This document shows positions 14,646 through 63,785 of a stretch of DNA of 64,000 bases, piece by piece. The translations under genes were made by a program, and so were the position numbers. How positions within the stretch are numbered: the stretch's first letter is position 1; every line of letters starts with the position of its first letter. Under the pieces are notes generated by a model that was not told where the DNA came from, ran no database searches, and saw nothing but the letters and a program-made list of their open reading frames with translations. Source of the stretch: Anthopleura xanthogrammica (taxonomy: Eukaryota > Cnidaria > Anthozoa > Actiniaria > Actiniidae); the NCBI GenBank assembly GCA_964019055.1, contig OZ025212.1, forward strand, positions 6,511,766-6,575,765, in the 5' to 3' direction.

Positions 14646-15393
14646 TCTAGATGCTTAAACCAAAAGGTCTGGCCTTTCAACGTTGTTAAATAAGCTTATA
14701 AGATCCACTTCACATTAATTACAGCTATACAAATCTCTTTAGTTTATGATTTAAGCTAATAACGTCGGGCTGTCTTCCATTATGGGAAGATAAGATGACA
14801 GATAACCAATAAATAAATATCGAGACTTCATAACTTCGAGAGGAGAGACAACCGTTTTAGATGAAGATAGAGTGAAGAGAAATCCTGTGTTTGTAGCTCT
14901 TTCCTTAGACGTCGTCTTAAATTCGAATCCTCAATACCTTTGCTTGATAAATAACAGTATTCAAGTCCATAAATGTTGTCGATGAAAGGCAAACTTTCAG
15001 AAGAAGTCAAACAATTTCTCCAATAAATTCAAAATTTCCGAAGATAAACAGTTTTTCACGCTCTTTTGGTTAATGAACCGTCCCTTTAACCAATACCGCT
15101 TCAAATTTAATCACCCAATCAAAACGTTTTCACTTTGGCTTTCTTCTTCCGTGGCATAAGCGAATAAAACTCTTAGACATTTTGCAGAAAAAGCTTTCAA
15201 AGTTTGAATAACTTGTCTTCGCGGTTTTTACTTTCCGCCATTTTGTATACATTCCTCGTTGCCAGCCAGTCTCGAAATGAATGCTAGGAAAAATAGACGA
15301 TTACTTCCGGTTTCGGAATTACTTCCGGTGGCGTTTGAGCTGTGATTCATTTTTAATTTCAATTTCGATATTTCAAATTAGCATTGCAGGAAG
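14646..15393. promoter_or_regulatory. Divergent intergenic region between TTLL5 and receptor-like copy 1
   Basis: About 750 bp separate the TTLL5 start (minus) from the copy 1 start (plus). The right third holds the cluster's common promoter block. I see no other gene. The sequence TCCTCGTTGCCAGCCAGTCTCGAAATGA at about 15257-15284 also recurs upstream of copy 4 (about 27304-27331). Confidence 0.6.
15303..15329 (+). promoter_or_regulatory. Paired ACTTCCGG (ETS-type) sites upstream of copy 1
   Basis: Two ACTTCCGG motifs, the complement of the ETS-family site CCGGAAGT, sit about 19 bp apart in a block conserved upstream of all five copies. Factor identity is inference. Confidence 0.5.
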
Positions 15394-16632
15394 ATGGAAT
15401 ATCAAGAACAGAGTGCATCAAACAAAGAGCTTCACAAGTTCCCTGAAAACCTCTTCAATGAGGAAGGATCCAGGTTTAGGTACAAGTTCTGTCATTCTCC
15501 TATTCGACATGTCAAAAGACTCATGAGTTCAGGGTTGCTATTGAAGGTTTTTGCCCTTGCATTTGGCTTGTGGAATCCTCGTCGAAGATGGCGTGCTATG
15601 TTTGCACTGCTATTTCTACTGGTTGATGTTTATATCCCTGTTCAAACAGCGATCTATGTGTTTGTGTGTCCATCGCATCGAGTTCGAAGTCCAGTGGCCG
15701 CTAGCTTGTTATGTACAAACAGGTCTCTAAACTTCACTTCAAAAGATATGGGAAAAGATATGGGCATTCCCTTGCCTATGTACACAAAAAAAGTGCTTTT
15801 AAATAATGCTGTGTTCGATATTAGTCAGCTGTTGTCTCACTTGACTTTCTTTAGTAGTGTCTGGATGCTTTCCACAAAAACTACATGCTGCGTTAAACAA
15901 GAAAATACTCTCACTTTGGTGAACCCTTCAGGATGGATTAAACTGAACTGTGTACTACTGTTCTCTTGGTGTGCCCTGATTTCTTGTGTAGTATGGCTCT
16001 CGTTTAGCATCTCAAGCTACGACCCTGGATCTTTTGTAGTTGATGTAGCTCATTTAATTTCACTATGGACCAATCTTTTGACATGCTGGTTATTTGGCAC
16101 TTTGATATCATCATTGGAAACTCTTGTAACCAGATGTACGCATGACATCATGACATCAGAACACCTTGATGATGTCATCAAAAAGCATCAGAAACTTTGC
16201 AAGATTATCTTTGGCACATCCAATGCATTTAAGCTGTGGTTCATGGTGCATTGGATTCTGTACACTATAGCTTGTGTCTTTTGGGTTGCAGACTTTGTGT
16301 CTTATTTTACCTGGACTTTTCAGTCATGGAGTATAATATACTATTCAGTCATTGCATTCGTTGTTTATTTATACATTTTTATATATCCATGCTACCGGGC
16401 TGCAGCATTAACAGTAAAATGCCAGCAAATGCTTGCCAATTTCAACCTGATGAGTGAAGAAGACTGGCATGATAATCATCCATTTCGCAAGCGATCTCGA
16501 CTACACTTGTTTCTGCAGTATGCCAGCTATGCTGACTGTGGATACAAAGTTGGGCGATATACATTTGGTTCAATGGCTGTGTTTTTCTCAACTCTTTTAG
16601 CAATGATGGGAATAGGATTAAAAATCCTCTGA
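15394..16632 (+). CDS. Gustatory-receptor-like 7-helix membrane protein, copy 1 (412 aa)
   Basis: This is a single-exon frame from ATG to TGA with about seven hydrophobic segments. A basic N-terminal tail (RHVKRLMSS, WNPRRRWRA) precedes helix 1. Loop 1 (about 95-135) carries N-glycosylation sites NRS and NFT, so it is probably outside. The 4-5 and 6-7 loops are long and charged, so probably inside. The last helix ends only three residues before the stop. This gives N-in/C-out topology and a minimal tail, as in the insect Gr/Or (7TMIC) superfamily and the cnidarian Gr-like proteins, which act as ligand-gated channels in insects. Class A GPCRs have the opposite topology and a longer tail. The family call is inference from topology and the CG...YTFG start of helix 7; an orphan cnidarian family is the alternative. 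TTGCAG just before the ATG may be the acceptor of a 5'UTR intron. Confidence 0.6.
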   Translation: MEYQEQSASNKELHKFPENLFNEEGSRFRYKFCHSPIRHVKRLMSSGLLLKVFALAFGLWNPRRRWRAMFALLFLLVDVYIPVQTAIYVFVCPSHRVRSPVAASLLCTNRSLNFTSKDMGKDMGIPLPMYTKKVLLNNAVFDISQLLSHLTFFSSVWMLSTKTTCCVKQENTLTLVNPSGWIKLNCVLLFSWCALISCVVWLSFSISSYDPGSFVVDVAHLISLWTNLLTCWLFGTLISSLETLVTRCTHDIMTSEHLDDVIKKHQKLCKIIFGTSNAFKLWFMVHWILYTIACVFWVADFVSYFTWTFQSWSIIYYSVIAFVVYLYIFIYPCYRAAALTVKCQQMLANFNLMSEEDWHDNHPFRKRSRLHLFLQYASYADCGYKVGRYTFGSMAVFFSTLLAMMGIGLKIL

Positions 16633-17112
16633 AACAACATTCAAGTTGCTGTCAGAGAGCACTACAGAATGGATTATTCAGAACTAGATGGAAAAAAACT
16701 ATAACTTGTACCATCACATATTAAAATTCAGATAAATTGTAGCATTTTTTCTTGGTAAAACTACGATATCATACACTGTAAATGAACTATAGATTCACAA
16801 TCAGGGGTAGATCTGGGATTTTGTTCATTTAAAACTGAAGTGATCTTAGTTTTCAAAACATTTATTGTTGGCCTTGGATTTTTTAATATTATAGTAAAGG
16901 TTTTTTTATCCAGCGAGGTGCTTATCTGTCTGGTTTATCTGTTTTTATAATCAAGATTGGGGTAGATAATTGTGATGTTGAATTATTGGACAAAGTGATG
17001 TAAGCTAACAAATATTCTGGCTTAATAAATATTATGTGGAATGTTTTTTCTTCTTCTTGTGCTTAGCATCAGGGTCCTTTCCATCTAACAAGTTCTTCTT
17101 TCGTTTGTTAAT
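16633..17112 (+). other. 3' flank of copy 1 with polyadenylation signal and DDX49 tail fragment
   Basis: This 3' flank is shared with all the copies and has AATAAA at about 17024. From 17032 it matches the antisense end of DDX49, starting at the stop codon. The match ends near 17110, where the repeat with ACTGGGTTGCC begins. Confidence 0.75.
17032..17112 (-). pseudogene. DDX49 tail fragment 1
   Basis: About 80 bp match the last codons of DDX49 (KHST and the lysine-rich tail) in antisense. There is no helicase domain. It was carried along by the receptor-cluster duplication and shares its breakpoint with the fragment at 21568. Confidence 0.8.
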
Positions 17113-18660
17113 TACTGGGTTGCCTGTGGCAAACCAGTCTTAAAATGAGTTTCTTTTTTCTTTTCTTTTTCCGGGTCGCGATCATGATTGGAGGAAACTC
17201 GTAACCATAGCAATTGTCTGTCCGATGGAGTTTTGGTTTTGGTTTGTCTATTTCTCAAATATGTCCCTCCCTCCACCCGCTTAGAGAGCCTGATACTCAG
17301 GTTAATATGATTGGATACATGTTGACAGAATTAATCACATAATGATATTGAGCATAAGGTATTTGTCTTTCCTCGGTCGCCATTGCATCGTTCCTTCGAG
17401 GTTCGTTGATAGAAAATTACATATTAGGTCTCTTTTCTTCGGGTTCGTCCACGTACTCAAGAAGAAAACTATGAGAATCTATGAGAAAACTATTAGAATC
17501 TTAGAACTATCTAGCCAAACTAGCCAATCGATATCTTACCAGTTCTCAAATACAAACTATACGGAGACAAACTAAAAAACATTCGAAAAAACCTACTAAT
17601 GGTCTATAACCAATCGAGCCCTGTGATTGGCTGAGCTACTAGGGGTCTATTAGTGATAGACCTCTAGTAGCGAAATACGCCGGTTTTGAAAACCAAAAAA
17701 AATATATTTAAAGCAAAATCCAAAACTTTTTGCATCCTTTTATTGGACCGATTAGTAGGTTTTTACTAAAAGAATTCGACCTCTCGCCCTCATGGCCTAC
17801 GAGTCAATAGCCCATGAGGCCTTCGGCCTCATGGGCTATTGACTCGTAGACCATTCGGACTCGAGGACTAATTGTTAAATAGACAAATTAACAAGACATT
17901 GAAGCTGACCACAAGAACTTGAAGTCAGACGAGCAGGATAAAGTAAATGAAGCTTAGATATATCGTCAGCAATTAGCTGTCGCCTCGCTGTGCACTAAAA
18001 AAAATGAGGTCAAGATGAGGAGTAACTTAACACGCGTAATGCAACGCTATTTGTTAGCGGGAACATCATAACTTTAAACTCTCTGAGAAAGATGCGTCTT
18101 TCTTATACTACTAATCTATTTTCCAAAATATAAATATTTTTCGTAAGCTATTGAATAGTTAGTTTAATTACGTAAGCTAGGAAAACCACACTGGTTACCA
18201 AAGGCACATAAAAAATAAAGAAGTAATAAAAGGGGTTAAAAAATTGCAGAAAATTTCTTTTCTTTGGTACAACCATATGACTACTTTGTGAGTGGGTGAA
18301 AATGCTCTATAACCAAAAATTCATTTTGATATAAAAAAAGCTTATTTGGCAGTGAGCAGTTTCGATCCTGAAATATATATAGTTATTTCATCAGACATGC
18401 TAGTCTTAGTAGCTTAAGGTAGTCTAGGTAAACAAAAAACTTAATACTTGTTAAAACGCGTTAGTGACGCAGTCAAATCTGTTGTCGTACCAGTAAAGTA
18501 GGATAAAAGGTTGTTCAGTCCACAGGAAAGGAAAACTCCTGCGCGAAATAAGTAAGAGGGATTAGCTTGGAGATTAGGCGAGTCTTGGAATGTTCATCAT
18601 TGAGCTCTAGAATACTTGCAAAGGCAACCCAATGAACGCTCCAAGAGCGTTTAGTTAAAT
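17105..18660 (+). mobile_element. Dispersed repeat, copy A (ACTGGGTTGCC ends)
   Basis: It begins ACTGGGTTGCCTGTGGCAAA and ends GGCAACCCAATGAACGCTCC, so the ends are inverted (ACTGGGTTGCC). It is closely related to 23098-24420 and more distantly to 21650-23097. No intact protein frame is seen; small frames differ between copies. It has an extra insertion of about 300 bp at 17575-17880 that the related copy C lacks. Confidence 0.6.
17575..17880. mobile_element. Insertion with palindromes inside repeat copy A
   Basis: The insertion is absent from the homologous site in copy C (about 23600). It holds a 53-bp palindrome at 17797-17849 (CTACGAGTCAATAGCCCATG and its complement) and a shorter inverted pair around TCTATTAGTGATAGA. 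Confidence 0.65.
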
Positions 18661-18666
18661 AAAGTT

Positions 18667-19898
18667 TTCATTCATTCATTCATTCATTCATTCATTCATT
18701 CATTCATTCATTCATTCATTCATTCATTCATTCATTCATTCATTCATTCATTCATTCATTCATTCATTCATTCATTCATTCATTCATTCATTCATTCATT
18801 CATTCATTCATTCATTCATTCATTCATTCATTCATTCATTCATTCATTCATTCATTCATTCATTCATTCATTCATTCATTCATTCATTCATTCATTCATT
18901 CATTCATTCATTCATTCATTCATTCATTCATTCATTCATTCATTCATTCATTCATTCATTCATTCATTCATTCATTCATTCATTCATTCATTCATTCATT
19001 CATTCATTCATTCATTCATTCATTCATTCATTCATTCATTCATTCATTCATTCATTCATTCATTCATTCATTCATTCATTCATTCATTCATTCATTCATT
19101 CATTCATTCATTCATTCATTCATTCATTCATTCATTCATTCATTCATTCATTCATTCATTCATTCATTCATTCATTCATTCATTCATTCATTCATTCATT
19201 CATTCATTCATTCATTCATTCATTCATTCATTCATTCATTCATTCATTCATTCATTCATTCATTCATTCATTCATTCATTCATTCATTCATTCATTCATT
19301 CATTCATTCATTCATTCATTCATTCATTCATTCATTCATTCATTCATTCATTCATTCATTCATTCATTCATTCATTCATTCATTCATTCATTCATTCATT
19401 CATTCATTCATTCATTCATTCATTCATTCATTCATTCATTCATTCATTCATTCATTCATTCATTCATTCATTCATTCATTCATTCATTCATTCATTCATT
19501 CATTCATTCATTCATTCATTCATTCATTCATTCATTCATTCATTCATTCATTCATTCATTCATTCATTCATTCATTCATTCATTCATTCATTCATTCATT
19601 CATTCATTCATTCATTCATTCATTCATTCATTCATTCATTCATTCATTCATTCATTCATTCATTCATTCATTCATTCATTCATTCATTCATTCATTCATT
19701 CATTCATTCATTCATTCATTCATTCATTCATTCATTCATTCATTCATTCATTCATTCATTCATTCATTCATTCATTCATTCATTCATTCATTCATTCATT
19801 CATTCATTCATTCATTCATTCATTCATTCATTCATTCATTCATTCATTCATTCATTCATTCATTCATTCATTCATTCATTCATTCATTCATTCATTCA
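18667..19898 (+). repeat. (TTCA)n microsatellite, about 308 perfect units
   Basis: This is an uninterrupted TTCA tetranucleotide run of 1232 bp. It is preceded by GTTAAATAAAGTT and followed by the conserved copy 2 promoter. The same site has 16 units upstream of copy 3, two to four upstream of copies 4 and 5, and none upstream of copy 1. Confidence 0.98.
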
Positions 19899-19924
19899 AT
19901 GCCTTCTAGGAAAAATAGAAGATT

Positions 19925-19951
19925 ACTTCCGGTTTCGGAATTACTTCCGGT
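19925..19951 (+). promoter_or_regulatory. Paired ETS-type sites upstream of copy 2
   Basis: The two ACTTCCGG motifs have the same spacing as in copy 1. The block is intact although the coding region downstream is broken. Confidence 0.45.
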
Positions 19952-20129
19952 GGCGAATGAGCTGTGACAAGCACATAATTTTCAGTCAATATTTTTTACT
20001 AGTAACTTCTTTGGAATTTCAATGACTTCCGCCTGTCATCTCTGATTCAAAGGCTTCCCATCTATAGTCATTAGCTCCCAAAACCCCTCCCCTTTCAATT
20101 TCAATACTTCAATTTAGCATTGCAGGAAG

Positions 20130-21162
20130 ATGGAAAATCAAGAACAGAGTGCATAAAACAAAGAGCTTCACAAGTTCCCTGAAAACCTCTTCAATGAGGA
20201 AGGATCCAGGTTTAGGTACAAGTTCTGTCATCCTCCTATTCGACATGTCAAAAGACTCATGAGTTCAGGGTTGCTATTGAAGGGTTTTGCCTTTGCATTT
20301 GGCTTGTGGAATCCTCGTCGAAGATGGCGTGCTATTTTTGCCCTGATATTTCTACTGGCTGATGTGTATATCCCTATTCCAACAGCGATCTATGTGTTTT
20401 TGTGTCCAACACTTCGAGTTCAAAGTACACTGGTTAGCTGGTTTTGTAGTAACAAGTCCGCTCTAAACTATATCAGGTCAAAAGATGTGAAGGGATATCA
20501 CATCAAAGAAGTATTTTTAGAATATTCTGTGTTGAATATTAGTCAGCTGTTGTCTCACTTGACTTCCTTTTGGAGTGTTTGGATGATTTCCAAAAAAAAC
20601 TACCTGCGTTAAACAAGAAAATACTCTCACTTTGGTGGACCCTTCAGGATGGATTAAACTGAACTGTGTACTACTGTTCTCTTGGTGTGCCCTGATTTCT
20701 TGTGTAGTATGGGTCGTGTTTGGGATCTCAAGCTCCGACCCTGGATTTCTTGTATTCTATGTAGCTCATTTTGTTTCACTATGGACCAGTCTTTTGACAT
20801 GCTGGTTATTTTGTACTTTGATATCATCGATGGAAACTCTTGTAACCAGATGTACGCATGACATCATGACATCAGAACACCTTGATGATGTCATCAAAAA
20901 GCATCAGAAACTTTGCAAGATTATCTTTGGCACATCCAATGCATTTAAGCTGTGGTTCATGGTGCATTGGATTCTGTACACTATAACTTGTGTCTTTTGG
21001 GTTGCAAACTCTGTGTCTTATTTTACCTGGACTTTTCAGTCTTGGAGTATAATATACTATGCTGACTGTGGATACAAAGTTGGGCGATATACATTTGGTT
21101 CAATGGCTGTGTTTTTCTCAACTCTTTTAGCAATGGTGGGATTTGGATTAAAATTACTTTGA
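20130..21162 (+). pseudogene. Gustatory-receptor-like copy 2, broken
   Basis: This aligns with the other copies from the ATG at 20130 to the stop at 21162 but carries three lesions. Codon 9 is TAA (20154-20156) where the others have TCA. An A run near 20597-20604 has one extra A, shifting the frame. An in-frame 186-bp deletion, relative to copy 1, joins ATACTAT to GCTGACTG and removes helix 6 and most of the 6-7 loop. The deletion lies between short direct repeats ending CTAT. The remaining frames, 20259-20612 and 20632-21162, are unlikely to give a working channel. Confidence 0.9.
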
Positions 21163-21567
21163 AACAACATTCAAGTTGCTGTCAGAGAGCACTACAGAAT
21201 GGATTATTCAGAACTAGATGGAAAAAAAAACTATAACTTGTATCATCACATATTAAAATTTAGATAAATTGTAGCACTTTTCTTGGTAAAACTACGATAT
21301 CATACACTGTAAATGAACTATAGATTCATAATCAGGCCGGGCGGATCCAGGATTTTGTTCATTTAAAACTGAAGTGGTCTTAGTTTTGAAAACTTTTATT
21401 GTTGGCCTTGGATTTTTTAATATTATAGTAAAGGTTTGTTTATCCAGCGAGGTGTTTATCTGTCTGGTTTAACTGTTTTTTATAGTCAAGATTGGAGTAG
21501 ATAATTGTGATGTTGAATTATTGGACAAATGTGATGTAAACTAACAAATATTCTGGCTTAATAAAAA

Positions 21568-21650
21568 TTATGTGGAATGTTTTTTTTCTTCTTGTTGTGC
21601 TGAGCATCAGGGTCCTTTCCATCTAACAAGCCCTTCTTTCTCTTGTTAAT
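21568..21650 (-). pseudogene. DDX49 tail fragment 2
   Basis: Antisense match to the end of DDX49, with more substitutions than fragment 1. It stops at the same breakpoint before ACTGGGTTGCC. The shared breakpoint shows that copies 1 and 2 descend from one rearranged unit. Confidence 0.8.
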
Positions 21651-23097
21651 TACTGGGTTGCCTGTGGCAAACCAGTCTTAAAATGAGGTTCGTTTTTACT
21701 GGGTTGCCATGGTGGCAAACCAGTTTTAAAATGATGGCCGTTTTTCGGGCGTCAGGTAGACCATAATGTCTATTGTGACGTCACACGTCATGATTGGTTG
21801 AGAACTTGTAACCATAGCAATAGTCTGTCCAATGAAGTTGTGTTATGTATTTGTGTACAAATATGATTGACAATTTAATAGAATTTGCCACATGATATCG
21901 AGCACTGGGTATTTATAGCTTTCGGTGTTTGGTTGTCATTAATTTATTCGTTCAAGGTTCGTGGTCTACCATGGTCTTTAGGTTTTTACAAACGCACGCG
22001 CCGTACGTGGTAGACCCACACTAAAAGATGTTATTGAGCGATTTTGGAACGGGTTGGTCCACGTACTCAAAGAGAGAAGTCTGAGTATCTATGAGCTATC
22101 TTTGAGAATCTATGAGCAAACTATGAGAATCGTAGAACTAGACAAACTAGTCAAAATAGACTAAGAGAATCTATGAACTATCTAGCTATGATCAAACTAG
22201 ATCTTACCAGATCTCAGATACAAAACAATATACTGAGACAAACTACAAAACGAGCGACAAACAAAGCTTTGATGAAAGCTGACTCCAAGAACTTGTAGAA
22301 GTCAGACGAGCTGATAGTGGTCTACAAGAAAGCGAACTGCCAAGACTCCTTGTTGAATATTTCCATTTATCATATGACCGTATTTCACTGTACGCGTGAT
22401 TCTAAAAAAAACCTTTGGGGAAAATGTCGTCAGCAAAAAAAGTACGCTTTTCCGAAAAGTGTAATAATTTCCCGTTCGGACTCGCCGTTCGGACTCGCTG
22501 CCGTCAATCATGTAAAAACTACGCATTTTGATTCGCATTTATTAAAAACGCTTTGAAATCGATTTTTTATATGTGGTCATATGATAAAATGCTTATTGAC
22601 TGAGTTAAGGTCGGTCCGAACGGGAAAATATTTGGCTCGAGGTCCTTGGCACGGAACTCGCTGCGCTCGTTCCGTACTTCAGGACCTCGAGCCAAATATT
22701 TTCCCGTTCGGACCGACCTTAACTCAGTCAATAAGTACATATTATGAAAATATAGAAAACCAAAACTGAGGGAAAAACCAATTACCAGTTAAACACATTT
22801 TGGCTAAGAGTATTTACATTGATAAAACGTTTGTTTTGCCGTGAACAGTTTCGATACCGAAATAGACATGTTTATTTCATCAGCTAGTCTTGAAAGGTCA
22901 CGGTACTCTAGTAGGTCAAGTAGAAACCTAATACGCGTCGACGAGTCAATAACGCAACACTAATGTCTTACTTAAAATGTTTTTGATAAAGGGGGACTTT
23001 GAACCCAAAAGGAACACTTTGGTGTGAAATAATAAAGAGTATATAGGATTGGCGAGCTCTTGCACAGGCAACCCAGTGAACGCTCCAAGAGCGTCTA
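21650..23097 (+). mobile_element. Dispersed repeat, copy B
   Basis: It has the ACTGGGTTGCC start twice in a row (about 21652 and 21709) and ends GGCAACCCAGTGAACGCTCC. Its interior is diverged from copies A and C. It contains an inverted-repeat insert at 22592-22735. No convincing protein is encoded. Confidence 0.55.
22592..22735. mobile_element. Inverted-repeat element with 60-bp arms
   Basis: The arms begin CTTATTGACTGAGTTAAGG and run through GGTCGGTCCGAACGGGAAAA, with a near-perfect complement at the far end. The centre holds CTCGCTGCGCTCG. Confidence 0.8.
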
Positions 23098-24420
23098 GTT
23101 TTTTCTGTTTCCGGGTCGCGATCATGATTGGACGAAACTCGTAACCATAGCAATTGTCTGTCCTATGGAGTTTTGGAATGTCTATTTCTCAAATATGATT
23201 GGATACATGTTGACAGAATTAATCACATAATAATATTGACCATAAGGTATTTGTCTTTCCTAGATCGGTCGCCATTGCATCGTTCCTTCGAGGTTCGTTG
23301 ATAGAGAATTACATATTAGGTCTCTTTTCTTGATCGAAGTATGTTGTCTGTAGGCATGTGGCCTACCATTATCTTTAGCTTTTTTATCGCTACGCTCAAA
23401 CTACTTAAAAACGCACACGCCGTACGTGGTAGACCCACACTAAAATATGTTATTTTGCGATTTTGGAACGGGTTCGTCCACGTACTCAAGAAATGAACTA
23501 TTAGAATCTATGAGAAAACTATGAGAATCTTAGAACTATCTAGCCAAACTAGCCAATCGATATCTTACCAGTTCTCAAATACAAACTATACGGAGACAAA
23601 CTACAAAACAATAGACAAACAAGACATTGAAGCTGACCACAAGAACCTGAAGTCAGACGAGCAGGATAAAGTAAATGAAGCTTACATATTTCGTCAGAAA
23701 TTAGCTGTCGGCTCGCCGTGCACTAAAGGTCAAGATGAGGAGGAACTTAACACGCGTAATGCAATGCTATTTGTTAGCGGGAACATCATAACTTTAAACT
23801 CTCTGATAAAGATGCGTCTTTCTTATACTACTAATCTATTTTCCAAAATACAAATATTTTTCGTAAGCTATTGAATAGTTAGTTTAATTACGTAAGCTAG
23901 GAAAACAACAATAAATGGATATCTGGGGGGATATACTGCCACAATATCCACACTGGTTACCAAAGGCACATAAAAGATAAAGAAGTAATAAAAGGGGTAA
24001 ACAAATTGCAGAACATTTCTTTTCTTTGGTACCACCACATGACTACTTTGTGAGTGGGTGAAAATGCTCTATAACCAAAAATTCATTTTGATATATAAAA
24101 AAAGCTTATTTGGCAGTGAGCAGTTTCGATCCTGAAATATATATAGTTATTTCATCAGACATGCTAGTCTTAGTAGCTTAAGGTAGTCTAGGTAAACAAA
24201 AACCTTAATACTTGTTAAAACACGTTAATGACGCAGTCAAATCTGTTGTCGTACCAGTAGAGTAGGATAAAAGGTTGTTCAGTCCACAGGAAAGGAAAAC
24301 TCCTGCGAAAAATAAGTAAGAGGGATTAGCTTGGAGATTAGGCGAGTCTTGGAATGTTCATCATCGAGCTCTAGAATACTTGCAAAGGCAACCCAATGAA
24401 CGCTCCAAGAGCGTTTAGTT
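23098..24420 (+). mobile_element. Dispersed repeat, copy C (5' truncated)
   Basis: It starts inside the element at TTTCCGGGTCGCGATCATGA, directly after the end of copy B. It runs parallel to copy A to the GCTCCAAGAGCGTTTAG end. A 117-codon frame at 23521-23874 is interrupted in copy A, so it is not supported as a gene. Confidence 0.6.
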
Positions 24421-24430
24421 AAATAAAGTT

Positions 24431-24494
24431 TTCATTCATTCATTCATTCATTCATTCATTCATTCATTCATTCATTCATTCATTCATTCATTCA
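24431..24494 (+). repeat. (TTCA)16 microsatellite upstream of copy 3
   Basis: This is the same position and flanks as the 308-unit array, with only 16 units. Confidence 0.95.
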
Positions 24495-24520
24495 ATGCCT
24501 TCTAGGGAAAATAGAAGATT

Positions 24521-24547
24521 ACTTCCGGTTTCGGGATTACTTCCGGT
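24521..24547 (+). promoter_or_regulatory. Paired ETS-type sites upstream of copy 3
   Basis: Two ACTTCCGG motifs lie about 200 bp before the start codon. A conserved pyrimidine-rich block (CCCCTCCCCTTTCAATTTCA) follows and ends TTGCAG just before the ATG, which looks like a 3' splice site. Confidence 0.45.
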
Positions 24548-24725
24548 GGCGAATGAGCTGTGACAAGCACATAATTTTCAGTCAATATTTTTTACTAGTA
24601 ACTTCTTTGGAATTTCAATGACTTCCGCCTCTCATTTCTGATTCAAAGGCTTCCTATCTATAGTCATTAGCTCCCAAAACCCCTCCCCTTTCAATTTCAA
24701 TACCTCAATTTAGCATTGCAGGAAG

Positions 24726-25952
24726 ATGGAAAATCAAGAACAGAGTGCATCAAACAAAGAGCTTCACAAGTTTCCTGAACACCTCTTCAATGAGGAAGAA
24801 TCCAAGTTTAAGTACAAGTTCTCTCAAACTCCTATTCGACATGTCAAAAGACCCATGAGTTCAGGGTTGCTATTGAAGGGTTTTGCCCTTGCATTTGGCT
24901 TGTGGAATCCTCGTCGAAAATGGCGTGCTATTTTTGCCCTGATATTTCTACTGGTTGATGTTTATATCCCTGTTCAAACAGCGATCTATGTGTTTGATTG
25001 TCCAACGCTTCGAGTTCGAAGTCCAGTGGCCGCTAGCTGGTTTTGTAAAAACAGGTCTCTAAACTTCACTTCAAAAGATGTGAAAGGCATTCCCTTGCCT
25101 ATGCACATAAAAGAAGGGTTTTTAAATAATGCTTTGTTGGATGTTAGTCAGCTGTTGTCTCACTTGACTTTCTTTTGGAGTGTTTGGATGCTTTCCAAAG
25201 AAAATACCTGCGTTAAACAAGAAAATACTCTCACTTTGGTGAACCCTTCAGGATGGATTAAACTGAACTGTGTACTACTGTTCTCTTGGTGTGCCCTGAT
25301 TTCTTGTGTAGTATGGCTCGCGTTTAGCATCTTAAGCTCCAACCCTGGATCTCTTGTAGTTTGTGTAGCTCGTTTAATTTCACTGTGGACCAGTCTTTTG
25401 ACATGCTGGTTATTTGGCACTTTAATATCATCGCTGGAAACTCTTGTAACCAGATGTACGCATGACATCATGACATCAGAACACCTTGATGATGTCATCA
25501 AAAAGCATCAGAAACTTTGCAAGATTATCTTTGGCACATCCAATGCATTTAAGCTGTGGTTCATTGTGCATTGGATTCTGTACACTATAACTTGTGTCTT
25601 TTGGGTTGCAAACTTTGTGTCTTATTTTCCCAGGACTTTTCAGTCTTGGAGTAGTTTGTTCTATTTCATTATCATAATAGTTATTTATTTATTCGTTTTT
25701 ATATACCCCTGCTACCGGGCTGCATTAATGACAGTAAAATGCCAGCAAATGCTTGCCAATTTCAACCTGATGAGCGAAGAAGACTGGCATGATAATCATC
25801 CATTTCGCAAGCGATCTCAACTACACTTGTTTCTGCAGTATGCCAGCTATGCTGACTGTGGATACAAAGTTGGGCGATATACATTTGGTTCAATGGCTGT
25901 GTTTTTCTCAACTCTTTTAGCAATGATGGGAATTGGATTCAAAATCCTCTGA
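24726..25952 (+). CDS. Gustatory-receptor-like 7-helix membrane protein, copy 3 (408 aa)
   Basis: This single-exon frame is intact from ATG to TGA. It has the same architecture as copy 1: a basic cytoplasmic N-terminus, a glycosylatable loop 1 (NRS, NFT), a nearly invariant 4-5 loop (HDIMTSEHLDDVIKKHQKL), and a C-terminus a few residues after helix 7. Loop 1 is close to that of copy 1, but the short 3-4 loop (LSSNPGS) and helix 6 (FIIIIVIYLFVFIYPCY) differ. DNA across the 4-5 loop is almost identical to that of the other copies, including silent sites, which suggests recent duplication or gene conversion. Confidence 0.6.
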   Translation: MENQEQSASNKELHKFPEHLFNEEESKFKYKFSQTPIRHVKRPMSSGLLLKGFALAFGLWNPRRKWRAIFALIFLLVDVYIPVQTAIYVFDCPTLRVRSPVAASWFCKNRSLNFTSKDVKGIPLPMHIKEGFLNNALLDVSQLLSHLTFFWSVWMLSKENTCVKQENTLTLVNPSGWIKLNCVLLFSWCALISCVVWLAFSILSSNPGSLVVCVARLISLWTSLLTCWLFGTLISSLETLVTRCTHDIMTSEHLDDVIKKHQKLCKIIFGTSNAFKLWFIVHWILYTITCVFWVANFVSYFPRTFQSWSSLFYFIIIIVIYLFVFIYPCYRAALMTVKCQQMLANFNLMSEEDWHDNHPFRKRSQLHLFLQYASYADCGYKVGRYTFGSMAVFFSTLLAMMGIGFKIL

Positions 25953-26430
25953 AACAGCATTCAAGTTGCTGTCAGAGAGCACTACAGAATGGATTATCCA
26001 GAACTAGATGGAAAAAAACTATAACTTGTATCATCACATATTGAAATACAGATAAATTGTAGCACTTTTCTTGGTAAAACTACGATATCATACACTGTAA
26101 ATGAACTATAGATTCACAATCAGGGGAATATCCAGGATTTTGTTCATTCAAAACTGAACTGAAGGCTTTTAATACTGACTAGTTTTACTGCTCTTATGAT
26201 CCTCTCATATCTTGTCATAGGGCCGGGTTGGGGCTCACTCAAATGAGCAGCTAATTGAGGGGGGAGAGGTGAGTAAATAATTGTACATCCCAAATTCTAT
26301 ATTTTGTCAGCACTTGCCAAATTAAAAAAAGGTTGGCAGCAAGGTGTTTATCTGTTTTTATAGTCAAGACAAATAGTATATAGTATAGACAAAGTGATGT
26401 AAGTTAACAAATATTCTGGTTTAATAAAAA

Positions 26431-26693
26431 TTATGTGGAATGTTTTTGTTTCTTTTTCTTGTGCTTAGCATCAGGGTCCTTTCCATCTAACAAGTCCTTC
26501 TTTCGCTTGTTATCTTTTCGTTTCTCAAGAATGTCACTGTCCCTCACTCTGAGTTCTGCTTCCCGCCTAGCAACTAACACACCTTTTAAAAGAGGAAGTA
26601 GTTCCTTCTCAGAGGTTTTGAGCTCTGTCAACTTTGTATTAACGACAGCTTCAATCGCTTTAACCCTTTCAACATTATATTGCGTTACCGAGG
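26431..26693 (-). pseudogene. DDX49 tail fragment 3
   Basis: About 260 bp match the DDX49 C-terminus in antisense (from TELKTSEKE through the lysine-rich tail to the stop). They are still in frame but cut off before the helicase motifs near 26693. Upstream DNA is unrelated, so no DDX49 product is expected. Confidence 0.85.
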
Positions 26694-28620
26694 TGCAAAC
26701 ATACCTTTTAGTTGCGCGCTTTTGAGAAGATATTTCTGTGTTCGAGTTACGCGCCCATCACGTAACTCGAAGTCACTAAAATTTCTTAGTCACACCGAGT
26801 TACGCGCTAGGCGTGGGAAAGACAAACTTGGGTGTGGTTGAGCGCGTAACTCGATCGAAGATTACCCGCCCTCCTCGCAGCGCTCGCAGCCATATCGTGC
26901 GGTTCGGGCCCTCACTAGGCTGTCGGTTGGGACTTCGGTCATACTTGGGGGCCTCCCAGGGGCTTGCGAGTTTTCGTTCTCATGGCAACCCTCAAGTTCA
27001 CTCTGGTCGCTGCAGATTTGCCAGGGAAGCTGTGTTCGCGTTTGTTTTTCCCCACCCCTCTCTGGTTTATTTTGGGTCCCTCCCTTTCCACTGGTCTTAG
27101 CATCAGTTTGATAGGTGCGTTAAGGATGAAACCGGTTCCATAGTAACTGGCCAAGCACCACGCTCAGTCTATTCCCCCTCGCGTCAGGGGTAGCCTGCTG
27201 GTGCCACGCATCCTTGCACCTCTGACCAAATTTAACCCTTTCCTCGGTACTGTTCCTCTGTAAGCGTAATAGACATTAACTTACGTCAACCCTTTTGTAA
27301 ACATTCCTCGTTGCCAGCCAGTCTCGAAATGAGGTCCCTCATGAAAAGCACCTATTGGCCGGTGATGAGGTCTCCTCGTTACAGCGCGACGCGCAAAAGT
27401 ATGACCACATTTAATGTATTCGCATACTTCTATGCACGGGATTTAGGTTACTGGAGACCTTCAGGGGTATGCTTCGTTTAAAACTCTCTCTACGCAACAC
27501 TTTGAACAAAACCCTACGAAACTATATATCGTTTGAAAGGTCATATGATACAGATTACGAAAAATATAGTTTTTGAACGCAATTTTTCAATCTAAAACGA
27601 TGCCGGAGCCTTAAACGCGAATCGGGTACGTTCCGTTGATGTGAATTAATGGACATGGTGTTAGCGCGTATTGATTTAAAAAAATCACTGTGTGAATTAG
27701 TGAAAGATAAACTACAAAAGGGTGTGAGCGTTTTTTGATTTTTTGCTTATTTAAAAAGTTATTGAATCTCAAAGTTGGAGTTTCCAAAAATGTCCATGTC
27801 GGTTGACGCTTTAACGCATAGAAATAATTAAAATATCAAAAATCGCTCACACCCTTTTTTTTATCAATACTTCCCCATGCTTCTTACCAAATTTCATTGA
27901 AATTGAACAAAACCACATACCCTATTAATTCATTTAAAGAGAGGGAATTGAAGTAAAAACGATCATAGAGATTTTAAGCTTTAAAGATTTGGGAGAGTTT
28001 CACTCCTCGTTAAGACGTCTGTCAACATAGTGATACCGCCAGCCAACCAAAAACAAGGAACAACGGGACCAACGGAGTGTTGACAAACACTTCGAACTAC
28101 GCGGGAAATCATCTAAAAATCGAACACTTCGTTTCTCCGGTAAACTTTTAATAAAGACACAAAAAGAATGTAGAATCCCCAAAGGTATCGAAAGTATAGT
28201 GTATTCAAGACGAAAAAGAAATCAGAAAGCGCCAGAGTTTCGAAGCGTGGTAGGACACGAATTTCATCACGCGGGAAAATCCAAAGAGTAACCGACTCAA
28301 GTATAATAGGATTAACGAGGGTCACGACGCCTTCGGTTTAGATTTATTTTCCCTTCAAATCATGTTTTTTTTAAAATAACTAGCGAACTTTTAAACATTT
28401 CGAGAAAAAAATTGTTCAAAAAGAAAGATTAATGTAGAAACTTTTAATTAGTGAAATAAAATTTTTTTACAAACATTTTACCCGCGAAGATTTGGTGTCA
28501 AGCTGTCTGGTTTTACCAAATAAGGGGTGTAAAAACTCGTTTGGCAGCAAAAAACCTGTGCATAGAAGTATGCGAATATATTAAAAGAGGTCATACTTTT
28601 GCGCGTTGCGCTGTGAATAA
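26694..28620. other. Spacer between copies 3 and 4
   Basis: No gene is recognised. The left part (26740-26860) holds several GAGTTACGCGC or complementary motifs. The part at 26870-27290 is GC-richer and unassigned. At 27304 a fragment of the copy 1 upstream sequence appears (CCTCGTTGCCAGCCAGTCTC), followed by the inverted-repeat element at 27381-28614. Confidence 0.6.
27381..28614. mobile_element. 1.2-kb non-autonomous DNA transposon with long inverted ends
   Basis: The left end ACAGCGCGACGCGCAAAAGT and a right end with TTTTGCGCGTTGCGCTGT are inverted over about 57 bp, including TATTCGCATACTTCTATGCA. The interior has no transposase frame. It interrupts a CTCCTCGTTA/AATAAA sequence that is continuous upstream of copy 5 (about 31677-31690). 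A related terminus lies alone at about 48662-48715. Confidence 0.75.
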
Positions 28621-28666
28621 ATATTTCAATCATTCATTCAATGCCTGCTAGGGAAAATAGAAGATT

Positions 28667-28692
28667 ACTTCCGGTTTCGGAATTACTTCTGG
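28667..28692 (+). promoter_or_regulatory. ETS-type site pair upstream of copy 4, second site mutated
   Basis: The first ACTTCCGG is intact. The second reads ACTTCTGG, losing the core CCGG. The rest of the promoter block is conserved. Confidence 0.45.
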
Positions 28693-28888
28693 TGGCGATG
28701 ACCTGTGACAAGCAATGGTTGTCACCGTTTTAATTAATTTTCAGTCAATATTTTTTACTAGGAACTTCTTTTGAATTTTAATGACTTCCACCTCTCATCT
28801 CTGATTCAAAGGCTTCCCATCTATAGTCATTAGCTCCCAAAACCCCTCCCCTTTCAATTTCAATACTTCAATTTAGCATTGCAGGAAG

Positions 28889-30106
28889 ATGGAATATCAA
28901 GAACAGAGTGCATCAAACAAAGAGCTTCACAAGTTCCCGAAAAACCTCTTCAATGAGGAAGGATCCAGGTTTAGGTACAAGTTCTGTCATTCTCCTATTC
29001 GACATGTCAAAAGACTCATGAGTTCAGGGTTGCTATTGAAGGGTTTTGCCCTTGCATTTGGCTTGTGGAATCCTCGTCGAAGATGGTGTGCTATTTTTGC
29101 CCTGATATTTCTACTGGCTGATGTATATATCCCTATCCCAACAACGATCTATGTGTTTTTGTGTCCAACGCTTCGAGTTCAAAGTACACTGGCTAGCTCG
29201 TTCTGTAGCAACAAGTCCGCTCTAAACTATATCAGGTCAAAAGATGTGAAGGGATATCACATGAAAGAAGTATTTTTAGAATATGCTGTGTTGGATGTTA
29301 GTAAGCTGTTGTCTCACTTGACTTCCTTTTGGAGTGTTTGGATGATTTCCAAAAAAACTACCTGCCTTAAACAAGAAAATACTCTCACTTTGGTGAACCC
29401 TTCAGGATGGATTAAACTGAACTGTGTACTACTGTTCTCTTGGTGTGCCCTGATTTCTTGTACAGTATGGGTCGTGTTTGGGATCTCAAGCTACGCCCCT
29501 GGATTTCTTGTATTCTATGTAGCTCATTTTGTTTCACTGTGGACCAGTCTTTTGACATGCTGGTTATTTTGTACTTTAATATCATCGCTGGAAACTCTTG
29601 TAACCAGATGTACGCATGACATCATGACGTCAGAACACCTTGATGATGTCATCAAAAAGCATCAGAAACTTTGCAAGATTATCTTTGGCACATCCAATGC
29701 ATTTAAGCTGTGGTTCATGGTGCATTGGATTCTGTACACTATAACTTGTGGGGTTTGGGTTTCAAACTCTGTGTCTTATTTTACCTGGACTTTTCAGTCT
29801 TGGAGTATAATATACTATACAATTGTTGCATTCCTTACTTATTTCTACATTTTTATTTACCCCTGCTACCGGGCTGCAGCATTGACAGTAAAATGTCAGC
29901 AAATGCTTGCCAATTTCAACCTGATGAGTGAAGAAGACTGGCATGATAATCATCCATTTCGCAAGCGATCTCAACTACACTTGTTTCTGCAGTATGCCAG
30001 CTATGCTGACTGTGGATACAAAGTTGGGCGATATACATTTGGTTCAATGGCCGTGTTATTCTCAACTCTTTTAGCAATAGTGGGAATTGGATTAAAAATC
30101 CTTTGA
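28889..30106 (+). CDS. Gustatory-receptor-like 7-helix membrane protein, copy 4 (405 aa)
   Basis: This single-exon frame is intact. Its loop 1 (LRVQSTLASSFCSNKSALNY) is very different from copies 1 and 3 but close to pseudogene copy 2, so these two form a subgroup. An NKS glycosylation site is kept. Helix 6 is distinctive (IVAFLTYFYIFIYPCY). The N-terminus, the 4-5 loop and the C-terminal 60 residues are almost unchanged from its sisters. Topology and possible function are as for copy 1. Confidence 0.6.
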   Translation: MEYQEQSASNKELHKFPKNLFNEEGSRFRYKFCHSPIRHVKRLMSSGLLLKGFALAFGLWNPRRRWCAIFALIFLLADVYIPIPTTIYVFLCPTLRVQSTLASSFCSNKSALNYIRSKDVKGYHMKEVFLEYAVLDVSKLLSHLTSFWSVWMISKKTTCLKQENTLTLVNPSGWIKLNCVLLFSWCALISCTVWVVFGISSYAPGFLVFYVAHFVSLWTSLLTCWLFCTLISSLETLVTRCTHDIMTSEHLDDVIKKHQKLCKIIFGTSNAFKLWFMVHWILYTITCGVWVSNSVSYFTWTFQSWSIIYYTIVAFLTYFYIFIYPCYRAAALTVKCQQMLANFNLMSEEDWHDNHPFRKRSQLHLFLQYASYADCGYKVGRYTFGSMAVLFSTLLAIVGIGLKIL

Positions 30107-30349
30107 TTTGACAACATTAAAGTTGCTATCAGAGAGAACTACAGAATGGATTATTCGGAACTAGATGGATAAAAACAGGAGCCCTGTTTGTATTGGGTAT
30201 CTCCAAAATAGGGGGACAAAGTTGGTCCGAGGGTGGGGTGCCGGTTCCCTGGATTTGCCCTTGACAATAGTTTGAAAGCCTCAACTAAAATAATAGGCAA
30301 CACTACTGCTTTTCTTAGATGTATACCCTTTGAGTAATTCCTTAGTGGG

Positions 30350-30350
30350 C

Positions 30351-30416
<66 letters not shown>
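30350..30416 (+). repeat. (AAT)n microsatellite
   Basis: About 22 AAT units lie in the 3' flank of copy 4. The matching place after copy 5 (about 33426) has only three units. Confidence 0.95.
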
Positions 30417-30417
<1 letters not shown>

Positions 30418-30862
30418 CAGATGGCTATGTATCTTTCTTTTAAGAACAGGATAAGTAGAAATCAAACAAGTCTTTTAATACTGACTAGTTTCACTGATCT
30501 TAGGACCCTTCTTTATTTTGTCATAGGGCCGGGTTGGGGCTCACTCAAATGAGCAGCTGATTGAGGGGGGAGAGGTGAGTAAATAATTGTACATCCCAAA
30601 TTCTTTATTTTGTCAGCACTTGCCAAATTAAAAAAGGTGGGCTCATCAATTCTGGGCATTTAAAACTGAAGTGATCTTAGTTTTCAAAACATTTATTGTT
30701 GGCCTTGGATTTTTTAATATTATAGTAAAGGTTTGTTTATCCAGCGAGGTGTTTATCTGTCTGGTTTATCTGTTTTTATAGTCAAGATTGGGGTAGATAA
30801 TTGTGATGTTGAATTATTGGACAAAGTAATGTAAACTAACAAATATTCTGGTTTAATAAAAA

Positions 30863-31250
30863 TTATGTGGAATGTTTTTGTTCCTTTTTCTTGTGCGTAG
30901 CATCAGGGTTCTTTCCATCTAACAAGTCCTTCTTTCGCTTGTTATCTTTTCGTTTCTCAAGAATGTCACTGTCCCTCACTCTGAGTTCTGCTTCCCGCCT
31001 AGCAACTAACACCTTTTAAAAGAGGAAGTAGTTCCTTCTCAGAGGTTTTGAGTTCTGTCAACTTTGTATTAATGACAGCTTCAATTGCTTTAACCGTTTC
31101 AACATTATATTGCCTTACCGAGGTGAAAACACGCCACCTTTTCCAGCCCTGGCTGTTCGTCAAACTCTGTGAATGTAATCATTGCTATTGAAAACCAGTT
31201 AAACAGCAGGTCTAGACCACGACTAGTATAGCAACATCTTTTGCAACGAG
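30863..31250 (-). pseudogene. DDX49 tail fragment 4, frameshifted
   Basis: This is the longest of the captured fragments, reaching back into helicase motif VI. It has a 2-bp deletion in 'aacaccttttaaaag' (the real gene has 'aacacaccttttaaaag'), other indels and substitutions. It ends where a GGGGTACTC element is inserted. Confidence 0.85.
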
Positions 31251-31460
31251 GATAGGGGTACTCCCTATGATGGACTATACGGGGATGCTCCGCCCGAAAG
31301 GGGTACTTTTTTTGGTATAAAAAGGGGTGGATTTTCTTCAAAGGTATATAAAAGGGGTACTTTTTTGCTGAAATTTGGTAGATAGAAATTAAAAGGGTAA
31401 AGGATCGAGAGTCCGGGTGGAGCATCCAAATATGAAACGACCCGAAGTACCCCCCGGGAT
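31251..31460. mobile_element. Element with GGGGTAC motifs and CCCCCCGGG end
   Basis: It starts AGGGGTACTCCCTATGATGG and ends AGTACCCCCCGGGA, with repeated AAAAGGGGTAC/GGTA motifs inside. The ends resemble the poly-G termini of the elements at 42510 and 54176. It sits in the DDX49 fragment 4 sequence. Confidence 0.55.
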
Positions 31461-31735
31461 TTTCACATGTCTTTTCTCATACAAGTAAGTCCACAAATAA
31501 CAAACAATCGCTTAAAAACGACTTTCTGTGAAAAATCATGTGATTAATTAGAGAGTGATACCAGTAGTACAATCATTGAAATGTGTTTTATCAAATATTT
31601 ATTAAGGTTTCGTACTTTTTATCTTCTTTTTCAAGTTTTCCTTTTCAGTCTTGGAGTATGATATATGATGAGGCCTCCTCGTTAAATAAAGTTTTCATTC
31701 ATTCATTCAATGCCTGCTAGGAAAAATAGAAGACT

Positions 31736-31762
31736 ACTTCCGGTTTTGGGATTACTTCCGGT
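31736..31762 (+). promoter_or_regulatory. Paired ETS-type sites upstream of copy 5
   Basis: Both ACTTCCGG motifs are intact. Just upstream, the TTCA microsatellite is reduced to about four units. Confidence 0.45.
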
Positions 31763-31940
31763 GGCGAATGAGCTGTGACAAGCACATAATTTTCAGTCAA
31801 TATTTTTTACTAGGAACTTGTTTGGAATTTCAATGACTTCCGCCTCTCATCTCTGATTCAAAGGCTTCCCATCTATAGTCATTAGCTCCCAAAACCCCTC
31901 TCCTTTCAATTTCAATACTTCAATTTAGCATTGCAGGAAG

Positions 31941-33161
31941 ATGGAATATCAAGAACAGAGTGCATCAAACAAAGAGCTTCACAAGTTGCCTGAAAACCTC
32001 TTCAATGAGGAAGGATCCAGGTTTAGGTACAAGTTCTGTCATTCTCCTATTCGACATGTCAAAAGACTCATGAGTTCAGGGTTGCTATTGAAGGGTTTTG
32101 CCCTTGCATTTGGCTTGTGGAATCCTCGTCGAAGATGGTGTGCTATTTTTGCCCTGATATTTCTACTGGTTGATGTTTATCTTTCTATTCAAACAGCGAT
32201 CAACTCGTTTGTGTGTCCAACGCTTCATGTTGGAAGTACACTGATTAGCTGCTTCTGTACAAACAGCTTTCTAAACAGCACATTAAAAGAGGAGGGCATT
32301 TTCTTTCCTTTTCACATCAAAGAAATGGTTTTAGAAGATGCTATGTTGTATATTAGTCAGCTGTTGTCTCATTTGACTTTCTTTTGGAGTGTTTGGATGA
32401 TTTCCAAAAAAGCTACCTGCGTTAAACAAGAAAATACTCTCACTTTGGTGAACCCTTCAGGATGGATTAAACTGAACTGTGTACTACTGTTCATTTGGTG
32501 TGCCCTGATTTCTTGTACACTATGGGTAGTGTTTGGGATCTTCAACTCCTACTGTGCATATTCTGTATTTCGTGTAGCTTATTCAGCTTCACTATGGACC
32601 GGTCTTTTGACATGCTGGTTATTTGGTACTTTGATGTCATCATTGGAAACTCTTGTAACCAGATGTACGCATGACATCATGACATCAGAACACCTTGATG
32701 ATGTCATCAAAAAGCATCAGAAACTTTGCAAGATTATCTTTGGCACATCCAATGCATTTAAGCTGTGGTTCATGGTGCATTGGATTCTGTACACTATAGC
32801 TGGTGTCTTTTGGGTTGCAAAATTTGCATCTTATTTTCCCTGGACTTTTATGGCTTGGAGTTTTATCTTCTATTTCATCATTACATTAGTTATTTGTTTA
32901 TACATTTTAATATACCCCTGCTACCAGGCTGCAGCATTGACAGGAAAATGTCAGCAAATGCTTGCCAATTTCAACCTGATGAGTGAAGAAGACTGGCATG
33001 ATGATCATCCATTTCGCAAGCGATCTCGACTACACTTGTTTCTGCAGTATGCCAGCTATGCTGACTGTGGATACAAAGTTGGGCGATATACATTTGGTTC
33101 AATGGCTGTGTTTTTCTCAACTCTTTTAGCAATGGTGGGAATTGGATTAAAAATCCTCTGA
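31941..33161 (+). CDS. Gustatory-receptor-like 7-helix membrane protein, copy 5 (406 aa)
   Basis: This single-exon frame is intact and the most divergent copy. Loop 1 (CFCTNSFLNSTLKEEGIFF) keeps an NST glycosylation site but little else. The 3-4 loop (IFNSYCAYSVFRVAYSASL) and helix 6 (FIITLVICLYILIYPCY) are also distinct, and residue LTGKC replaces LTVKC. The remaining blocks are nearly identical to the others. It is next to the true DDX49 and may sit at the ancestral position of the family. Confidence 0.6.
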   Translation: MEYQEQSASNKELHKLPENLFNEEGSRFRYKFCHSPIRHVKRLMSSGLLLKGFALAFGLWNPRRRWCAIFALIFLLVDVYLSIQTAINSFVCPTLHVGSTLISCFCTNSFLNSTLKEEGIFFPFHIKEMVLEDAMLYISQLLSHLTFFWSVWMISKKATCVKQENTLTLVNPSGWIKLNCVLLFIWCALISCTLWVVFGIFNSYCAYSVFRVAYSASLWTGLLTCWLFGTLMSSLETLVTRCTHDIMTSEHLDDVIKKHQKLCKIIFGTSNAFKLWFMVHWILYTIAGVFWVAKFASYFPWTFMAWSFIFYFIITLVICLYILIYPCYQAAALTGKCQQMLANFNLMSEEDWHDDHPFRKRSRLHLFLQYASYADCGYKVGRYTFGSMAVFFSTLLAMVGIGLKIL

Positions 33162-33783: not shown

Positions 33784-34078
33784 TTGAGGTTTTTCATGTG
33801 ACGTTGTCACTGTAGACAAATTTCTTCAATCTGAAAAAGTAGTTGATATTCAAAGTTGTCATACAGATATTAGTAAAAATGTGAAGTTTTGTGAAGATCA
33901 TGTGTAAAATATCAAAGATATGAATTTTATTCATTCTCTGGATTATGGACAATCTTCATGAAACTTTGCCGTTTTACTAAAATATCTACATGACAAATTT
34001 GACTGTGAACTTCTTTCCCTGATTAAACAAAAAAAATAAAATTTCCTGATAGTGTGACGTCACAGTGAAAAGCCTCAA
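33784..34078. mobile_element. Tc1/mariner-type MITE with TA target duplication
   Basis: The inverted ends are TTGAGGTTTTTCATGTGACG and, complemented, TTGAGGCTTTTCACTGTGAC. They are flanked on both sides by TA (33782-33783 and 34079-34080). The other copies of this 3' flank read straight through (TTTTTATAGTCAAG), giving the empty site. The element has no coding content. Confidence 0.85.
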
Positions 34079-34155
34079 TAGTCAAGATTGGGGTAGATAA
34101 TTGTGTAATTGGACAAATTTGATGTAAACTAACAAATATTCTGGTTTAATAAAAA

Positions 34156-62796: not shown

Positions 62797-63785
62797 CTTT
62801 TAGTTGGCGTTTTGGCTCTGCAAACAAGTCAATGATCTTTCAAATCGAAGTTGGTGCGTCTTGTCCCCTACTCTTTCAACTCTCCACAAAATACTACGGT
62901 ATTTTCCATAACTTTTACAAAAACAGCTGAATTTTGGATTTTTGATGAAAAACACTATCAAAAATAATCAGTATGGATCAGTTTGACAAAAGAATTGAAG
63001 TTAGAAAACTCTAAAATAGTGAAGAATATAAGGACAGCCTTTCCCACGCCACGACCAACATGATAAACAAATCGACTCGATTCCCGAAAGACCTTTCATG
63101 CTGGAACAGGCATTCGGGATTTATCGGAAAATCATCGGAAAGTCTTCGACCTCAACAACTTTTGAAACTTTCCAGTGAATCAGCTCAGTTCCACAATAAC
63201 TTTTCATGAATTCGCTCTTTTTTCCTGAGACAATAACAAAAAACAAAAAGAATACTCAGTTCAACATTCAGCAAAATTAACTTTTTATTTTCTTTGCACT
63301 TCACACTTCATTAAATAACTTCACACTTTCTCATCCATCTTTCCTGTTTCTCAAAAAATGATATTCCGTAAGATATGACTTACAAATAATCAAGACTGAT
63401 GATAATATTATTGAACAACTAAAAATCCCTTATTTCATAAGGAATACTTGTGCTTCATGTCAAAAACGTCACAACTTTTCGGGCTCATTTCCGCCACAGG
63501 AAAAAGAGAGAGATGAAAAACTCTGCGATCATTTTTTTGTAGATTTTTCTTGTTAAAAAAATGCAAGCACACTATCCAGGATGGTGACATTTATAAATCA
63601 AAGCTGGTCTCCAAAAAGTCAAATAACAAGACCTGTTTATTTCATTCACTCTTACTTTACGACAGATGCTGACGAGTAATTATCGATTTGTGGAACAGGA
63701 CTCGGAGTATGCTGGAGCATGCGCATTTGTATTCATGACGTCGGAAATAAAATCACGTGGCGCGATTTAGATGAGCAGAATCCAC
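62797..63785. promoter_or_regulatory. Probable bidirectional promoter region of MEN1 and a right-hand gene
   Basis: About 1 kb upstream of the menin start, ending in a GC-richer stretch with ATGACGTCGG and CACGTGGCGCG near 63735-63765. Promoter role is inferred from position. Confidence 0.4.

Follow-up and report, generated by a model that had tools for sequence, protein, structure and literature searches.

The insect Or, Orco and Gr proteins are members of the seven-transmembrane ion channel (7TMIC) superfamily. According to PMC8410599, the ligand pocket of MhOR5 sits between S2, S3, S4 and S6 in the outer leaflet, the gate is formed by S7b, and the subunits make contact in an anchor. Residues of a motif in the seventh transmembrane helix (TM7) serve subunit contacts and the gate in Orco, and PMC7746228, which makes this point, treats the motif as diagnostic but not definitive for animal Gr-like (GRL) proteins and calls functional information on Gr-like proteins outside insects very sparse. 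Additional members with no recognizable sequence similarity, namely Drosophila Grl, PHTF and trypanosome GRL1, have been found by structure (Benton and Himmel 2023, PMC9998090), with a procedure that included topology predictors and a reverse search against the fly proteome. Here, we describe a tandem array of genes for predicted 7TMIC proteins in the sea anemone Anthopleura xanthogrammica, located at 15394-33161 of a 64,000-nucleotide stretch of contig OZ025212.1 (the window).

An initial annotation of the window described a tandem, single-exon cluster of Gr-like receptor candidates with four intact frames and one broken one, of 405-412 residues. The frames and the cluster are borne out: all five copies lie on the plus strand (Table 1), with starts spaced 3.1-4.7 kb apart, and copies 3, 4 and 5 share 85%, 83% and 80% identity with copy 1. 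The broken copy 2 is interrupted by a stop at codon 9, changes frame near 20587-20612, and has lost about 180 bases at 21057-21060, equivalent to most of TM6 to TM7a. The single-exon label is correct for the coding frame, which lacks introns in copies 1, 3, 4 and 5 and in two paralogues elsewhere in the genome (C7 and C4, see below); it extends to the coding frame only, and an intron in the 5' untranslated region is possible. Chance frames are ruled out because an Exaiptasia diaphana protein, AC249_AIPGENE18861 (P0005), is 42% identical to an array protein (E 2.4e-87).

Structures were modelled for copy 1 and for the paralogue P0006, with a family alignment of 14 sequences behind the models. 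Both have long TM4-TM6 helices that extend into an anchor and a TM7 split into 7a and 7b, the arrangement of the 7TMIC fold (helices at 211-254, 258-303, 309-352, 367-380 and 384-411 in copy 1, and at 245-285, 291-344, 348-389, 407-428 and 431-448 in P0006, where the predicted local distance difference test score (pLDDT) is below 50 at 420-437 and 443-449). The top structural matches of the P0006 model are Or/Gr channels, over about 330 residues, and the match is weaker with the copy 1 model. The structural comparison that the initial annotation had proposed came out as it expected with the better model, P0006, for which no class A G protein-coupled receptor (GPCR) or transporter stands out. 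Its count of about seven hydrophobic segments agrees with the seven helices of the models and only in part with Kyte-Doolittle peaks; copy 1 gives seven peaks, but these include an N-terminal one (residue 52) and leave out TM2, so that the helix count rests on the models.

The annotated loop features fared similarly. Glycosylation sequons are indeed limited to loop 1 (2, 2, 1 and 1 across the intact copies), and the long charged loops are indeed 4-5 (36 residues) and 6-7 (44 residues including TM7a). The chain stops soon after helix 7, as claimed, although two residues beyond the helix as drawn and not three. Outer loop 1 is 36-42 residues long and its cysteines C92 and C107 are kept in the aligned members, while outer loops 2 and 3 have 6-7 residues in the copies. 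The fold and the loop-1 sequons would suit a topology with the N-terminus inside and the C-terminus outside. The short outer loops 2 and 3 agree with the 7TMIC trait of inner loops that exceed the outer ones in length, the long outer loop 1 does not, and the evidence from charge is mixed (outer loop 1 carries seven Lys or Arg in copies 1 and 3, and two in copy 5).

Where do the copies differ? The proteins were split by predicted topology into an outer part (outer halves of TM1-TM6 plus outer loops), inner parts and TM7b. Amino acids vary at 79 of 127 outer sites versus 42 of 274 elsewhere (Fisher 1e-20), and a total of 79 variable outer sites is attained in 4 of 401 circular shifts. Variable sites make up 49 of 82 in the outer membrane halves, 30 of 45 in the outer loops and 12 of 14 in the outer half of TM6, compared to 4 of 29 in TM7b and none of 36 in inner loop 2. 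By maximum likelihood, omega is 1.80 in the outer part (twice the log-likelihood difference, 2dlnL, 6.72 versus omega 1), and separate outer and inner values improve on a shared one by a 2dlnL of 5.5 (by subtraction). Omega is 2.35 (p 0.0014) when loop 1, where gaps could misalign, is left out, 1.99 (p 0.016) in the outer membrane halves alone, 1.46 (p 0.31) in the outer loops alone, and 0.45 (p 0.026) in the anchor plus pore.

Part of this pattern could arise if the array encoded a 7TMIC that serves development or housekeeping, and if constraint on its extra copies were relaxed, with the outer parts drifting. Whole-gene pairwise dN/dS among the copies is near neutral (0.70-1.65), and one copy in five has decayed. 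The paired ACTTCCGG sites ahead of the copies would also fit, since we take them to resemble promoters of broadly expressed genes. In addition, PMC7746228 mentions a possible apical patterning role of a Nematostella GRL. Drift, however, caps omega at 1, versus the 1.8-2.35 found here; four frames remain open, the anchor and pore are constrained, and the C7/C4 pair of paralogues, taken as a control, is under purifying selection (omega 0.33, outer part 0.45). The outer part of this control pair is also the more variable (23 of 138 versus 30 of 308 sites), yet with omega below 1. We consider relaxed constraint unlikely. That gene conversion alone produced the conserved blocks is unsupported as well, because residues that did not change show even silent variation (4/44 and 17/216, p 0.76). 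Conversion may nevertheless operate on top of selection: some windows have almost no silent differences, and some inner windows show hardly any change at all, with none of 360 pairwise comparisons differing at codons ~256-275, below the ~8% of the 5' flank.

Compared with MhOR5, the diversified parts of the array proteins fall on the pocket side and the constant parts on the gate and anchor side, for which the simplest reading is a set of channel subunits tuned apart on a common core. On balance, the array probably encodes subunits of a tetrameric 7TMIC channel that is gated by ligands and probably selective for cations, and in which the pocket diversifies on a constant core; we infer the tetramer, conduction, ligand gating, chemosensory use and co-assembly. 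Each subunit would have its N-terminus inside and its C-terminus outside, TM4-TM6 would extend into a cytoplasmic anchor that joins the subunits, TM7b would line the pore, and the outer helix halves would enclose a small-molecule pocket in the outer leaflet. Constancy of the anchor and pore would let every copy assemble, perhaps also with the other copies, and selection on the pocket would tune each copy to a different chemical. The selection pattern, which is absent from the initial annotation, strengthens its chemosensory reading.

A diversifying outer face is also what one would expect of immune or self/non-self receptors, in which an arms race drives change in the protein-binding outer surface and the 7TMIC core does no more than signal. 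The variable outer loops, the tandem array with its decayed copy, the loop-1 sequons and the two conserved loop-1 cysteines are all compatible with such receptors. Against them, outer loops 2 and 3 are short, and the excess is at least as strong within the membrane as in the loops, where omega does not differ from 1. Since sites in the membrane contribute to the excess no less than sites in the loops, small ligands are favoured over protein partners, and we regard an immune function as rather unlikely.

Several results weigh against a diversifying ligand-gated 7TMIC channel. The mean pLDDT is middling, 59 for the copy 1 model and 66 for the P0006 model, and no Foldseek match reaches E 0.001 with either model. 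With the copy 1 model, HTR2A ranks first, followed by ABC transporters, all above the Or/Gr channels (E 0.3-0.6, TM 0.10-0.15). This low-confidence ranking and the seven helices are what a cluster of class A GPCRs or transporters has in its favour; the copy 1 model is indecisive taken alone, and the fold of the P0006 model leads us to reject a class A GPCR, which makes such a cluster extremely improbable. A search by sequence against Or/Gr chains in the PDB gave no match (one stray at E 1.2, and none in a further search). The 7tm_7 profile check proposed in the initial annotation failed, in that none of the 14 family members matches Pfam 7tm_7 (PF08395) at a maximum E of 10, where the HMMER filters drop most matches above ~0.1, while a control protein, Actinia tenebrosa LOC116308271 (P0016), does match (7e-19, 68.8 bits, cut-off 26.6). 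On the side of selection, the borders between outer and inner parts came from hydropathy and fold but were set after the sliding-window result was known, and 6 of 13 sites in the inner half of TM6 are also changed. Omega for the inner part (0.75, 2dlnL 1.02) and for TM7b (0.45, 2dlnL 0.99) does not differ from 1, the subset p values are uncorrected, and four sequences give rough omega values. The best trees also differ among the partitions, a sign of either conversion or too little data.

How, then, does the array family relate to classical cnidarian GRLs, which occur in the same genome? A 7tm_7 search of the genome gave four matches, all under the cut-off, two on C19 (L015, L016) and one each on C10 (L018) and C13. 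The C19 and C10 matches are class A GPCR-like frames by eye, so only C13 stands as classical GRL, with two tandem loci (L017; 1558273-1566300) that match P0016. One of the two, its exons joined by splice signals, has three phase-0 3' introns and ends in GYFTILIQFQA, with a canonical TM7 motif; the other has a stop inside the matched stretch. In the array family, the TM7 motif (T/S)Yhhhhh(Q/K/E)(F/L/M) is mostly lost: of the 14 members, one retains T/S and none the Tyr, all have Lys at the Q/K/E position, and the last position is Leu (8), Ile (5, the copies and P0005) or Val (1). An alignment of the array family with the classical pair by hhalign gave no link, in a test made weak by having two sequences on one side. 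Stray Pfam matches to DUF5378 (E 5.8), BRI3 (0.011) and Bcl-2 (0.013) were judged to be chance. We did not file the family as 7tm_7 GRL, because it lacks the 7tm_7 match, most of the TM7 motif and the 3' introns. Judged by the modelled fold, it would belong to the 7TMIC superfamily outside the classical GRLs; the Gr-like label of the initial annotation thus survives as a statement about fold, and gives way to a sequence-cryptic clade where it implied an expansion of classical GRLs.

Loss of the motif raises the question of whether these proteins are surface channels at all, since a 7TMIC-fold protein could instead be an intracellular membrane protein or a receptor that acts via partners. The loop-1 sequons, the little-changed TM7b and anchor, and the outer diversification argue for a surface protein with an assembly core, and a non-channel role appears quite unlikely.

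The extent of the channel-like family was explored by searching the genome (290 Mb, 125 contigs) with three queries, namely copy 1, P0006 and one exon from a relative on C9, and the locus counts are lower bounds; all three queries recover the same set of at least eight loci, namely the five array copies, one of them decayed, and those on C7, C4 and C9. The C7 (8.42 Mb) and C4 (13.99 Mb) paralogues are single open frames with 88% mutual identity and 26-31% identity to the copies. The C9 relative (L012:5472-8424, 501 residues as joined) is distant and has two phase-1 introns, placed by splice signals. Its two profile matches are separated by about 88 mostly polar residues at inner loop 2. As this relative has introns, we considered that the intronless genes could be retrocopies. 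The named relatives found, one entry each, come from E. diaphana (P0005) and A. tenebrosa (LOC116286240, P0008, 83% identical to P0006), which agrees with the cnidarian family proposed initially; six further protein sequences were also found. In the tree, support is 99/100 for a group of the copies and the Exaiptasia protein, and 94/95 for one that unites the C7/C4 pair with the Actinia protein and the six further sequences, though the placement of long-branched rows, including P0005 and C9, is unsure. Monophyly of the copies relative to the Exaiptasia protein is weak (61/96), and the array could therefore have expanded before the split from Exaiptasia.

The flanks of the copies record the duplications. 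Downstream of copies 1-4, fragments from the 3' terminal part of a helicase gene, which we take to be of the DEAD-box type, mark the duplication units (Table 1). Copy 5, beside the helicase gene itself, would be the original locus, from which the array extended. A perfect (TTCA) array of 308 copies (18667-19898) lies immediately upstream of copy 2. A 16-copy tract occupies the equivalent position ahead of copy 3, and copies 4 and 5 are preceded by short remnants; this repeat may be the site of the duplication borders. Nine of the ten ACTTCCGG sites in the window sit ahead of copies, in pairs at four of the five. The motif is ETS-like, and its sharing suggests common control, although duplication carried the sites along, so that they amount to a single event. 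A Menin homologue has exons on the minus strand at 57328-58023 and 62347-62799.

Table 1. Positions in the window of the array copies, helicase-derived segments and shared upstream sites.
Feature	Position	Strand	Description
Copy 1	15394..16632	+	intact single-exon frame, 412 aa, P0001, 7TMIC-like model
Copy 2	20130..21162	+	decayed
Copy 3	24726..25952	+	intact frame, 408 aa, P0002
Copy 4	28889..30106	+	intact frame, 405 aa, P0003
Copy 5	31941..33161	+	intact frame, 406 aa, P0004, adjoins helicase gene
Helicase gene 3'-end frame	34156..34917	-	Pfam Helicase_C; convergent with copy 5
Helicase 3'-end piece downstream of copy 4	30778..31253	-	87% like 34078-34566
Helicase 3'-end piece downstream of copy 3	26388..26705	-	95% like 34112-34431
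Helicase 3'-end piece downstream of copy 2	21482..21649	-	89% like 34078-34238
Helicase 3'-end piece downstream of copy 1	16947..17111	-	88% like 34078-34238
Sites upstream of copy 1	15303..15328	+	paired ACTTCCGG (ETS-like)
Sites upstream of copy 2	19925..19950	+	paired ACTTCCGG
Sites upstream of copy 3	24521..24546	+	paired ACTTCCGG
Site upstream of copy 4	28667..28674	+	single ACTTCCGG; second site altered
Sites upstream of copy 5	31736..31761	+	paired ACTTCCGG

Chemical sensing by non-arthropod Gr-like channels is largely an open question, and the array makes a chemosensory role testable copy versus copy. Copies that are near-identical at the presumed assembly parts and fast-changing at the insect ligand site suggest, by analogy, a separate chemical-sensing family outside the arthropods. 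We tentatively raise the possibility that sea anemones built an Or-like chemosensory system independently, with cryptic 7TMIC copies as interchangeable tuning subunits that share a single conserved anchor and pore and have a positively selected pocket. A literature search of limited reach found no description of the clade or of a cnidarian GRL expansion, and our claim of novelty is limited for that reason. The standard Pfam model can evidently miss a whole clade, in this genome at least eight cryptic loci (one decayed) versus at least two classical ones, with further branches of the superfamily, PHTF among them, outside the search.

Among known systems, P0005 and P0008 are members of the family's two sub-clades, annotated as hypothetical or uncharacterized. 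Classical cnidarian GRLs would belong to the same superfamily, but P0016 matches 7tm_7 and the C13 gene has three phase-0 3' introns, neither of which applies to the array family. With insect Or, Orco and Gr proteins (MhOR5, BmGr9, DmGr43a) the array proteins share the predicted fold, long TM4-TM6, a split TM7, almost no C-terminal tail, and a variable outer half on a constant anchor; they differ in being cnidarian, in the lack of any sequence similarity found, and in the missing TM7-motif Tyr. Compared to Drosophila Grl, PHTF and trypanosome GRL1, the array represents a cnidarian clade that is tandemly expanded and has a diversifying outer half.
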